In this document: one piece after another, positions 38,278 through 40,296 of the stretch
Layout of the letters: the number at the start of each line of letters is the position of its first letter
Position numbering within the stretch: the stretch's first letter is position 1
NCBI RefSeq assembly: GCF_030687715.1
Contig: NZ_CP117445.1
Coordinates: 1,050,501 to 1,114,500, forward strand
DNA: 64,000 bases
Origin: Pseudomonas sp. FP2196
GTDB taxonomy: Bacteria; Pseudomonadota; Gammaproteobacteria; Pseudomonadales; Pseudomonadaceae
Reading direction: 5' to 3'
The notes under the pieces: model-generated
The model's input: the letters and a program-made list of their open reading frames with translations, nothing else
The model's database searches: none
What the model was told of the DNA's origin: nothing
Made by a program: the position numbers and the translations under genes

Positions 38278-38540
38278 TGTAGGAGCTGCCGCAGGCTGCG
38301 ATCTTTTGATCTTGCTGTTGTTTTGCTGTGGGCGGTCTGACAGCCGACCGGTCTTTGGCGGGTGTGCTCATTTCAACTGTGGGAGCTGGCTTGCCAGCGA
38401 TGGCGGCCTGATAGCCGACCGATTTTTAGCAGGTTGCATGCGATTCAAATTGTAGGAGTGAGCCTGCTCGCGATGACGGTGTGTCAGGCACCAACGATGT
38501 TGAATGTGAGCCTGCAATCGCGAGCAGGCTCACTCCTACA
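38278..38540. repeat. Cluster of four REP elements of three sequence types
   Basis: TGTAGGAGCTGCCGCAGGCTGC at 38278, TGTGGGAGCTGGCTTGCCAGCGA at 38378, TGTAGGAGTGAGCCTGCTCGCGA at 38451, and the inverse CGCGAGCAGGCTCACTCCTACA at 38519-38540. The last two form a REPIN; the first two are single. Together with the repeat at 37950 this makes the spacer of about 730 bases between the reductase and DUF6124 genes, which holds no gene I can see. Confidence 0.85.
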
Positions 38541-38545
38541 AGGGG

Positions 38546-38920
38546 TTAGCTGTGTGGCGGGGATTGGGGGATTTCGTGGTTATCCAGTACGCGATTCACG
38601 GCCAGTTCCGCGAGCATGATGATTTGCTGGATCGCCAGAATGACACGGCGCTGTGGCAAGTCGACGTAGGCGGCGATATCGCTGCTCATGAGGCTGGCTT
38701 GCGCCAGTGATTCGCAGGCGTGGACGAGGAGGCTTTCGTTGTCTTGGCCCGGTGCGACCTGGAACATGGTGCTGGGTTTGTGGAAGCGCAACGTCAACTC
38801 GTTGGGTTTGAAGTAGTGGTCGAGCGCTCGCTCGGCGGCTTCGTGGAATTTCTTTGAACCGGAAGATTCGTAGGGTGAGGTGTTATCCGCTTCGGGCGGA
38901 TTGGGTGTTGGCTTTTTCAT
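38546..38920 (-). CDS. DUF6124 family protein
   Basis: 124 aa soluble protein. MKKPTPNPPEADNTSPYESS followed by GSKKFHEAAERALDHYFKP, STMFQVAPGQDNESLLVHAC and RRVILAIQQIIMLAELAVNRVLD is the DUF6124 pattern, a small Pseudomonas-specific family of unknown function usually present in several copies per genome. AAGGA lies eight bases before ATG. The gene is preceded by a structured leader (38921-39153), described separately. Its stop is six bases from a REP. Confidence 0.85.
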   Translation of the reverse strand: MKKPTPNPPEADNTSPYESSGSKKFHEAAERALDHYFKPNELTLRFHKPSTMFQVAPGQDNESLLVHACESLAQASLMSSDIAAYVDLPQRRVILAIQQIIMLAELAVNRVLDNHEIPQSPPHS

Positions 38921-39153
38921 GACAAAGATCCTTTAGATGGAAATGGAGCTGCCATGTTTCGTTTTCCAGGCGAAAGGGGTGGCAGCTGTACGCGGACTGG
39001 AAAAACCGGCAAAGGATCAAACCCGGCAGACCCGAAGGTCTCCCACGTACAGCCGCCATAACTCAAACACCGGCGCTGAAAAAGCGCGGCATTATGTCAT
39101 GTGCTGTGATCCTGCGGGTTTTCCAGACCCGGTCGCTGATTCGTCAGCGACCC
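38921..39153 (-). promoter_or_regulatory. Structured 5' leader / candidate cis-acting RNA of the DUF6124 gene
   Basis: On the minus strand this stretch folds as a chain of hairpins: GGTCGCTGA/TCAGCGACC (39152-39131), CGGGT/ACCCG (39131-39115), GCGCT/AGCGC (39087-39073), then GGCGGCTGTACG (39057-39046) paired with CGTACAGCTGCC (38992-38981) over 12 bases, enclosing AGACC-TTCG-GGTCT (39041-39028). The one non-Watson-Crick position in the long stem is G-U on the minus strand but A-C on the plus strand, and the UUCG loop also exists only on the minus strand, so the RNA form is the minus transcript reading into the gene. I recall similar leaders before other DUF6124/DUF3077 genes. The ligand or regulator, if any, is unknown. 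Confidence 0.65.
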
Positions 39154-39226
39154 CCAAACCCTATCCACCGCACTTCCGACGAGCAACCTGCAAAACACGT
39201 CGGAAATATCCGCGAAATCCCCTGAA

Positions 39227-39306
39227 TGTAGGAGCTGCCGTAGGCTGCGATCTTTTGATTTTTAAACATCAAGGTCAAAAGATCGCAGCCTGCGGCAGCT
39301 CCTACA
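39227..39306. repeat. REPIN, GGAGCTGCCGTAGGCTGCGATC type
   Basis: TGTAGGAGCTGCCGTAGGCTGC with GATCTTTTGAT, then the inverse ATCAAGGTCAAAAGATCGCAGCC...GGCAGCTCCTACA. A nearly perfect palindrome of about 80 bases between the LysR gene and the DUF6124 leader. Confidence 0.9.
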
Positions 39307-39327
39307 GGAGGCGCGTTTTGTTTAACG

Positions 39328-40296
39328 TCAGTTGGCGACGCGGGCGCCGGCGAGGCTGCCGCTGAGTTCGTAGGCGGCCAGTTCTGCCTGGTGTGCCGCG
39401 AGGATTTCCGGCAGCGAGCCGCGCAGGTATTCGACCCACGTCTTGATCTTTGCATCAAGGTATTGCCGCGATGGGTAGATCGCGTACAGGTTCAGTTCCT
39501 GCGAGCGGTAGTTGGGCATCACGCGCACCAGCGTGCCGTTGCGCAAGCCTTCGATGGCCGCGTACACCGGCAACACGCCGACGCCCATGCCGCTGGTGAT
39601 CGCGGTTTTCATCGCGTCTGCCGAGTTCACCAGAAATGGCGAGCTGTTGATGGTGACCATTTCCTGGCCTTCCGGGCCATCGAACGCCCATTTTTCCAGC
39701 GGGATCACCGGGCTGACGAGGCGCAGGCAGGCGTGGTTGAGCAGGTCGCTGGGCTTTTGTGCGCAGCCGTTGGCTTTCACGTAGGCCGGCGAGGCGCAGA
39801 CGATGCTGTAAGTGATGCCCAGGCGTTGCGAGACGAAACCGGAGTCCGGCAGTTCGCGGGCCAGCACGATGGAGACGTCGTAGCCTTCATCGAGCAGGTC
39901 CGGCACGCGGTTGGCCATGGTCAGGTCGAAGGTCACGTCCGGGTGGGTCTTGCGGTAGCGGGCGATGGCATCGATGACGAAGTGCTGGCCGATGCCGGTC
40001 ATGGTGTGCACTTTCAACTGCCCGGCGGGGCGGGCGTGGGCTTCGCTGGCCTCGGCCTCGGCTTCTTCGACGTAGGCGAGGATCTGTTCGCAGCGCAGCA
40101 GATAGCGCTTGCCGGCTTCGGTCAGGGCGATGCGCCGTGTCGTGCGGTTAAGCAGTCGGGTTTGCAGATGGGCTTCCAGGTTGGAGACCGCGCGCGAGAC
40201 GTTGGCGGTGGTGGTGTCGAGCTGCACGGCGGCGGCGGTGAAGCTGCCGGCTTCGGCCACGCAACTGAAGGCGCGCATGTTTTGCAAAGTGTCCAT
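39328..40296 (-). CDS. LysR-family regulator, divergent from an AaeXAB-like efflux operon
   Basis: 322 aa. Winged helix MRAFSCVAEAGSFTAAAVQLDTTTANVSRAVSNLEAHLQ with wing TRLLNRTTRRIALTEAG, then the LysR substrate domain (GQLKVHTMTGIGQHFVIDAI ... ITSGMGVGVLPVYAAIEGL). It is divergent from an efflux operon of the p-hydroxybenzoate exporter type, whose E. coli version is also controlled by a LysR protein (AaeR). Control of that operon is inferred from position. Confidence 0.87.
   Translation of the reverse strand: MDTLQNMRAFSCVAEAGSFTAAAVQLDTTTANVSRAVSNLEAHLQTRLLNRTTRRIALTEAGKRYLLRCEQILAYVEEAEAEASEAHARPAGQLKVHTMTGIGQHFVIDAIARYRKTHPDVTFDLTMANRVPDLLDEGYDVSIVLARELPDSGFVSQRLGITYSIVCASPAYVKANGCAQKPSDLLNHACLRLVSPVIPLEKWAFDGPEGQEMVTINSSPFLVNSADAMKTAITSGMGVGVLPVYAAIEGLRNGTLVRVMPNYRSQELNLYAIYPSRQYLDAKIKTWVEYLRGSLPEILAAHQAELAAYELSGSLAGARVAN

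Follow-up and report, generated by a model that had tools for sequence, protein, structure and literature searches.

Phage P1 uses the C4 antisense RNA to silence its own anti-repressor operon. C4 is cut out of a longer transcript by RNase P, to a length of about 77 nt, its loops a' and b' pair with the sites a2 and b2, and the downstream genes are repressed. This scheme of excision and repression is consistent with the passages on P1 in two open-access papers (PMC8198154, PMC5320573), and full repression of ant was described as requiring C4 (PMC8198154). Weinberg et al. 2010 (PMC2864571), in the relevant part, list both C4 and its companion motif c4-a1b1 from Proteobacteria and from phages. 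C4-type RNAs of Acinetobacter were reported, in the portion of PMC5320573 that treats them, to be transcribed and apparently processed at the RNase P site. In Burkholderia cenocepacia, a single C4 shares its transcription unit with isrK, according to an excerpt of PMC4603805. Two further systems are treated in sections of PMC4825925. There, the P4 CI RNA pairs with sites 5' and 3' of itself, leading to premature termination, and the short form of IsrK activates translation of its own read-through message.

The C4 locus of the window

The window is a 64,000-nt stretch of Pseudomonas sp. FP2196 DNA. An initial annotation had described an unnamed, structured RNA with several hairpins on the minus strand of 38921-39153, leading into a DUF6124 gene. 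The hairpins are real. The minus strand of this stretch folded at -99.4 kcal/mol, compared with a mean of -75.1 (sd 4.6) for dinucleotide shuffles (z = -5.23, 0 of 200 shuffles as low). By its sequence, the RNA is a member of a known family, the C4 antisense RNA: Rfam model RF01695 matched over its full length (model 1-87) at 39063-38975 on the minus strand, with 74 bits at a cut-off of 45. This was the only Rfam match of the whole window at the gathering threshold. A riboswitch was rejected as a candidate, since none of the riboswitch families passed this threshold anywhere in the window.

The C4 match ends 54 nt 5' of the start codon of the DUF6124 gene, on the same strand. The gene (38546-38920, minus strand) encodes a protein of 124 aa, which matched PF19619 with 69.3 bits (cut-off 27). 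A structural model of the protein (mean pLDDT 73, pTM 0.46) had helices at 22-37, 61-85 and 90-114 and matched no PDB entry at E 0.001 or below. Searches of NCBIfam, PHROG and PADLOC at E 0.1 gave no match either. In the openly licensed literature, no paper on DUF6124 was found and a single one on DUF3077, which mentions, in the passage concerned, a DUF3077 pseudogene mutated in evolved P. putida (PMC9630843).

All elements of the locus lie on the minus strand, in the order presumed promoter, leader hairpin, a1, b1, C4, a2, b2 and gene start (38920). The presumed promoter (39158-39186) consists of a -35 box TTGCTC (39186-39181), a 17-nt spacer and a -10 box TAGGGT (39163-39158), in the register of the family. 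The leader hairpin (39131-39152), where the transcript presumably starts, falls within a match to the c4-a1b1 model RF03163 (39164-39111) that scored 43.9 bits, under the cut-off of 46.7. Site a1 (39119-39126), complementary to loop a', paired with it at -18.9 kcal/mol, the first rank among 41 targets. Site b1 (39108-39113), complementary to loop b', paired at -12.4 kcal/mol (rank 12 of 41), which for this single locus is not specific. Further 3', at 39087-39073, is a small hairpin whose loop is rich in U. The helices of the initial annotation are accounted for by the leader element, by C4 and by the segment that separates the two. The isrK model (RF01394) matched weakly at 39151-39079, with 27.9 bits at a cut-off of 50.

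The C4 RNA itself (38975-39063) has a consensus main helix of 17 pairs (39058-39042 with 38996-38980), and a GG is present where this helix begins. The 12-base helix of the initial annotation (39046-39057 with 38981-38992) forms part of it, and the G-U pair it reported is found at 39054-38984. The 12-base helix is missing, though, from the one fold of lowest energy for the complete stretch, in which the leader is paired with the C4 loops, and it appears once the leader is omitted from folding. The C(UUCG)G hairpin was located at 39041-39028, inside C4. Loop b', with the core GATCCTTT (39011-39018), is complementary to b1 and b2, and loop a', TTTTCCAG (38997-39004), to a1 and a2; the C4 loops are therefore complementary to sites both 5' and 3' of the RNA. 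Site a2 (38962-38969) paired with a' at -9.7 kcal/mol (rank 4 of 41). Between the two downstream sites, a spacer segment (38947-38954) is able to pair with the C4 3' arm in an alternative structure (-14.6 kcal/mol). Site b2, AAAGGATC (38927-38934), holds the Shine-Dalgarno sequence of the DUF6124 gene and paired with b' at -12.1 kcal/mol, which is modest when this locus is taken singly (rank 13 of 41; p 0.057 against its own shuffles).

An inverted repeat, TTCCGAC / GTCGGAA (39199-39205 and 39174-39180, minus strand), flanks the -35 box, and like blocks occur 5' of several other copies. This repeat could be an operator; in the P1 record, a C1 operator and the -35 box of P2c4 overlap. Inverted repeats, which we take to be REP-like, also lie on both sides of the cassette, at 39226-39307 and about 38450-38540. 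Partial DNA similarity of 38910-39200 was detected to 28 phage records, 25 of them from Pseudomonas, the best being phiAH14b (117 nt at 76.7%).

Copies, linkage and turnover

In the genome that contains the window (G000, 6.24 Mb), 41 C4 copies pass the cut-off and one further copy is weak. The genome also has 39 DUF6124 domains and two further DUF3077 genes, while a third DUF3077 match sits on a DUF6124 gene. For 35 of the 41 copies, one of these domains starts 72-236 nt 3' on the same strand (33 DUF6124, 2 DUF3077), and the weak copy is arranged likewise. The initial annotation had placed similar leaders near other DUF6124/DUF3077 genes, and this was correct. Six C4 copies precede something else, and five domains have no C4 directly 5'.

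Other genes were seen behind C4 as well. Bro-N is a domain type of phage antirepressors, and C4 stands before a Bro-N-domain gene at L013 (G000:6006892) and L116 (G019:6396084), with own pairing exceeding swapped pairing; the L013 gene was tested and matched PF02498 (Bro-N) with 36.8 bits. At L012 (G000:339093), C4 precedes, by eye, several small genes in a row, which partly overlap and end with one that is primase-like; the arrangement looks like a P4-type satellite operon. Other small proteins are encoded 3' of C4 at L042, L047, L049, L147, L149, L160, L163, L164 and L171. They look like distant DUF6124/DUF3077 relatives, and the proteins of L042, L047, L164 and L160 had no Pfam match at E 0.1. 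L046 (G000:238468), with C4 before a methyltransferase-like gene and no sign of loop-target pairing, is perhaps a decayed copy. The C4 3'-arm pattern was also present in 46 viral contigs (L187-L232). By eye, many of these have C4 before DUF3077-like, DUF6124-like or about 52-aa proteins, and others are chance matches.

Within the genus, 149 genomes were searched, and the counts are lower bounds, with scoring limited to 27 C4 and 38 DUF6124 candidates per genome. C4 was detected in at least 137 genomes, with at least 27 copies in 34 of them, and DUF6124 in at least 118, with 20 or more copies in many. Among the matches listed, both were present in 117 genomes, C4 only in 20, DUF6124 only in one and neither in 11 (Fisher p 6e-8, for genomes that are non-independent). 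An order-level sample of 145 genomes contained 20 with C4, at most five copies each except for the window's genome; DUF6124 was absent from the other 144, one of which belongs to the same genus. Searched against 50,697 phage records, the window protein had one match, in a Pseudomonas element (43% identity), and it had none in 72,556 plasmid records.

The history of the window site was followed by means of the neighbouring LysR gene. Among 38 relatives searched, this gene was above threshold in 20 (including the window's genome), all of which were read by inspection. C4 and DUF6124 were directly 3' of LysR in four (G000, G019, G016 and G005), and G011 had a broken DUF6124-like remnant only. In 11 (L241-L250 and L252), LysR was directly followed by a dehydrogenase gene, without C4; the same dehydrogenase follows the cassette in the window. 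Of the remaining readings, two stop at a contig end and two have other sequence. The 'spreading cassette' considered in the initial annotation has only partial support: the cassette is present, decayed or absent at this site, and a mobility gene was not seen there. Two types of b' loop occur at the site, one shared by L233 and L236 and another by L234 and L237, and by inspection b1 and b2 follow the loop. The syntenic copy L237 scored 47.1 bits with c4-a1b1, over the 46.7 cut-off.

Pairing of loops and targets and its change

The leader expression matched 90 of 118 loci only, and the promoter and full-length fold counts for this reason leave out 28. The promoter pattern TT (-35), TA (-12) and T (-7) preceded the leader hairpin in 61 of the 90 loci, compared with a mean of 0.0 and a maximum of 0 in shifted register. 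A generic sigma-70 scan found nothing at the presumed promoter. In 114 distinct C4 rows, 2730 of 3074 cells were in standard pairs (88.8%), and shuffles reached 80.0% on average and 80.8% at most; the P3 columns, which are partly misaligned (39027-39005 and 39025-39007, with few standard pairs), were kept in these totals. Rows of kin can beat shuffles without any structure, so double changes outweigh the pairing percentage. Two-sided changes were found in 18 of the 27 C4 pairs, with the largest number in the UUCG hairpin (39028-39041). Compensatory changes of this kind had been named in the initial annotation as a check on a structured RNA, and together with the Rfam match, the promoter register and the linkage they argue for a structured minus-strand RNA leading into the DUF6124 gene. 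The weak copy L050 (20.6 bits) was kept out of the pairing and stem counts and inside the count of distinct loop cores (118 loci), and one below-cut-off match each in G019 and G010 stayed outside the locus sets.

Duplex energies were calculated for b' and a' of each copy against every target in the same genome, in three genomes (G000, n = 41; G019, n = 41; G010, n = 35). For b'/b2, a'/a2, a'/a1 and b'/b1, the own mean was stronger in all three (0 of 20000 permutations each). The b'/b2 means for own targets were -14.4, -15.1 and -15.5 kcal/mol in G000, G019 and G010, versus -9.4, -9.5 and -9.6 kcal/mol. With a2 and b2 combined, the own target ranked first in 21/41, 33/41 and 21/35 loci. Taken alone, a'/a2 (own site first in 7/41, 9/41 and 1/35) and b'/b1 (6/41, 8/41 and 7/35) were weak. 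Because related copies could mimic an own-pair preference, composition-keeping controls were run in G000. There, the -14.4 of b'/b2 compared with -9.6 for shuffled loops, -10.4 for reversed loops (Wilcoxon p 2.5e-6) and -8.9 for a coding window.

In the own-shuffle test of G000, 24 of the 41 loci passed p 0.05 and 12 had p above 0.1. The window locus is outside the 24 (p 0.057, b'/b2 rank 13 of 41), yet its a'/a1 pairing was the best of 41. L046 showed no pairing, and L030 pairs with b1, not with b2. The overlap of b2 with the ribosome-binding window in 100 of 105 loci was set aside as evidence, because the short search window gives many chance overlaps. Overall, the sequences point to about forty modules in the chromosome, on average each tuned to itself. 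Cross-pairing amounted to 6.2, 3.0 and 5.1% within G000, G019 and G010 and to 4.7-5.8% between genomes. As cross-pairing is no rarer within genomes than between them, selection for mutual exclusion within a genome is unsupported; we therefore claim fast paired change, with avoidance unproven.

The change was followed in 22 G000/G019 loci with common flanking DNA (some on one side only), which were paired by greedy one-to-one assignment. In these pairs the gene had a median identity of 0.87, the two main-helix arms 0.89 and 0.94, and a' 0.94. The b' core had a median of 0.56, close to the mean of 0.54 for random non-matched cores, and the fixed b2 window 0.58. The b' core was less than 75% identical in 17 of the 22 pairs and 0.76-1.0 identical in the other five. 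In the 17 changed pairs, the proteins were 0.80-0.96 identical in 13 cases and 0.71-0.75 in three, and one comparison was spoiled by a wrong start codon. Start codons were picked by script, and some are wrong, for example at L151, where the frame gives 25% protein identity. Across the changed pairs, own combinations had a mean of -15.2 kcal/mol and swapped ones of -9.3, with own better in 15 of 17 (Wilcoxon p 8e-5). Both own combinations beat both swaps in 13, while the swapped combination was slightly better in the two pairs L034/L122 and L016/L139.

Divergence of b' is also visible inside genomes, where proteins that are 97-99% identical bear different loops, some differing by few bases. A local cassette array in G019, at 1.82 Mb (L118, L119, L139 and L146), encodes proteins that are 96-98% identical and has differing b' loops, those of L118 and L119 being few bases apart. 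In a set of 36 pairs whose proteins share at least 90% identity, conservation was below that of four-fold sites for the b' core in 28 pairs and for b2 in 20; these pairs are non-independent, and gene conversion of the coding part may contribute. In total, 104 of 118 b' cores were distinct. Identical cores were shared by no copies within G000 or G019, by two pairs within G010, by eleven pairs between G000 and G019 and by one between G019 and G010. Judging from these comparisons, the b'/b2 specificity is replaced rapidly through paired changes.

Predicted control of DUF6124 and comparison with known systems

We assign a probability of roughly 0.78 to the reading that the locus is a complete C4 antisense module silencing its own downstream gene, with transcription, processing, repression and a role of the leader as follows. 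A single promoter would give a transcript that runs from the leader, with its sites a1 and b1, through C4 into the DUF6124 message. C4 would be excised and would act in trans on uncut message. Loop a' would bind a2, just 3' of C4, and loop b' would cover b2, the ribosome-binding site, and the DUF6124 message would therefore stay untranslated. The leader sites a1 and b1 would bind the same loops and so compete. When folded without the leader, the C4 helix formed in 87 of 90 loci, and the C4 loops reached their own ribosome-binding site in cis in one of the 90. The rarity of this contact favours action in trans.

Leader capture of the loops and pairing of the C4 3' arm with the spacer suggest a further control layer, by analogy with the two structures of IsrK in the account of PMC4825925. 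It is possible, with the odds somewhat against it, that the leader with a1 and b1, either by itself or as part of the same transcript, sequesters the loops of C4, whereupon the C4 3' arm pairs with the spacer and the leader RNA serves as a trans activator. Such a switch would add to C4 repression rather than replace it. Leader-loop pairing was obtained in 33 of the 90 full-length folds, including that of the window, and the high rate of C4 helix formation without the leader fits this too. The helix, however, was kept in 53 of the full-length folds, and the P1 leader itself does not capture the C4 loops. The 3' arm paired better with the real spacers (means -14.8, -14.1 and -15.0 in the three genomes) than with shuffled ones (-11.1, -10.5 and -11.5), with a weak preference for the own spacer (327 of 5000 permutations in G000, 1 in G019 and 38 in G010). 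That the 3' arm and the spacer reach -10 or better in 111 of 117 loci was set aside as evidence, because shuffled spacers average about -11. The sub-threshold isrK match in the leader and the precedent of the short IsrK (PMC4825925, in the section concerned) speak for a switch, and the lack of any terminator-like site in 38400-39420 speaks against it.

That missing terminator also counts against control of transcription, in which pairing would cause early termination before the gene and translation would be affected only indirectly. The P4 CI RNA, as presented in PMC4825925, is a precedent for such control, and the L012 copy precedes the row of small genes that ends, by eye, in a primase-like gene. 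The place of b2 points the other way, as it holds the ribosome-binding site at the window and has a median place 15 nt 5' of the start codon. We regard termination as unlikely.

Slightly less probable again is a type I toxin-antitoxin-like or selfish cassette, in which the DUF6124 protein would be harmful when translated, C4 would be the antidote, and new copies would need a private specificity to escape the residents. The antisense component of such a system is in place. Many copies per genome, and presence, absence and decay at one site, would be expected of such a cassette, as would the nearly identical paralogues with different loops and the lack of identical b' cores inside G000 or G019. 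No toxin-like feature was seen, however, in the DUF6124 protein, which is helical in its model, conserved and free of PHROG or PADLOC matches. Its near absence from mobile elements (0 of 72,556 plasmid and 1 of 50,697 phage records) and a crosstalk within genomes no lower than between them do not fit either. DNA palindromes or REP-like repeats without RNA function, the former already doubted in the initial annotation and the latter hinted at by the REP-like repeats flanking the cassette, have a negligible chance given the promoter register, and such a repeat alone is ruled out by the covariation of stems and of loops with targets.

Pseudomonas might have converted an RNA of phage immunity into many antisense locks, private and quick to change, each of which guards one small effector, and the array would be a putative RNA sensor bank for invaders. 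We consider this reading improbable as a whole, and its sensor step is speculative; it would explain by an arms race why b' and its targets outpace synonymous sites in most close pairs. Were it true, a phage or satellite that brings in or transcribes C4 targets matching a resident C4 would titrate that RNA away and so set its DUF6124 protein free. The candidate regulator also offers a testable handle on the DUF6124 family and the smaller DUF3077 family. With about 40 natural antisense-target pairs per genome on one scaffold, these loci form a set for studying joint specificity change in RNA pairs.

The closest described systems share parts of this layout. IsrK/STnc1160 of Salmonella Gifsy-1 and the P4 CI RNA with seqA/seqC likewise combine a leader, a processed RNA and a downstream target that share complementary stretches, in the description of PMC4825925. 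They regulate other genes, and the isrK model match at the window is far under its cut-off. The c4-a1b1 motif (RF03163) represents the same leader with a1 and b1 target sites; its score at the window (43.9) is under the cut-off (46.7). The Group 1 C4-like sRNAs of Acinetobacter baumannii are likewise multi-copy in one chromosome and have variable loops (PMC5320573). The part of that study devoted to them discusses trans targets and names no linked target gene, whereas the Pseudomonas target is directly 3' of most copies and co-varies with its RNA. Own-gene targets are now a possibility for the Acinetobacter RNAs too, whose targets that part leaves open. In the relevant parts of the openly licensed papers searched, Pseudomonas C4 arrays, C4 with DUF6124 and the paired change are unreported.

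C4 of P1 and P7 (RF01695, immI region) shares with the window locus the whole-length model match and the order of promoter, a1, b1, C4, a2, b2 and small gene. The P1 record annotates promoters, a1, b1, C4, a2, b2 and then icd, and it scored 68.8 bits with C4 and 51 with c4-a1b1. The spacings are similar as well. In P1, the offsets from the C4 model end are 0 nt for a2, 29 nt for b2 and 47 nt for the start codon; the corresponding Pseudomonas medians are 4, 35 and 50 nt, taken over those 105 of 118 loci whose start codon is 40-62 nt 3' of C4. The RNA family is thus already known, and what appears to be new, against the portions of the literature cited here, is its use in many copies together with DUF6124, and the paired loop-target change. 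In contrast to those of P1 and P7, the Pseudomonas copies are chromosomal, have DUF6124 instead of icd-ant, number about 40 per genome and have their b' specificity replaced between species.
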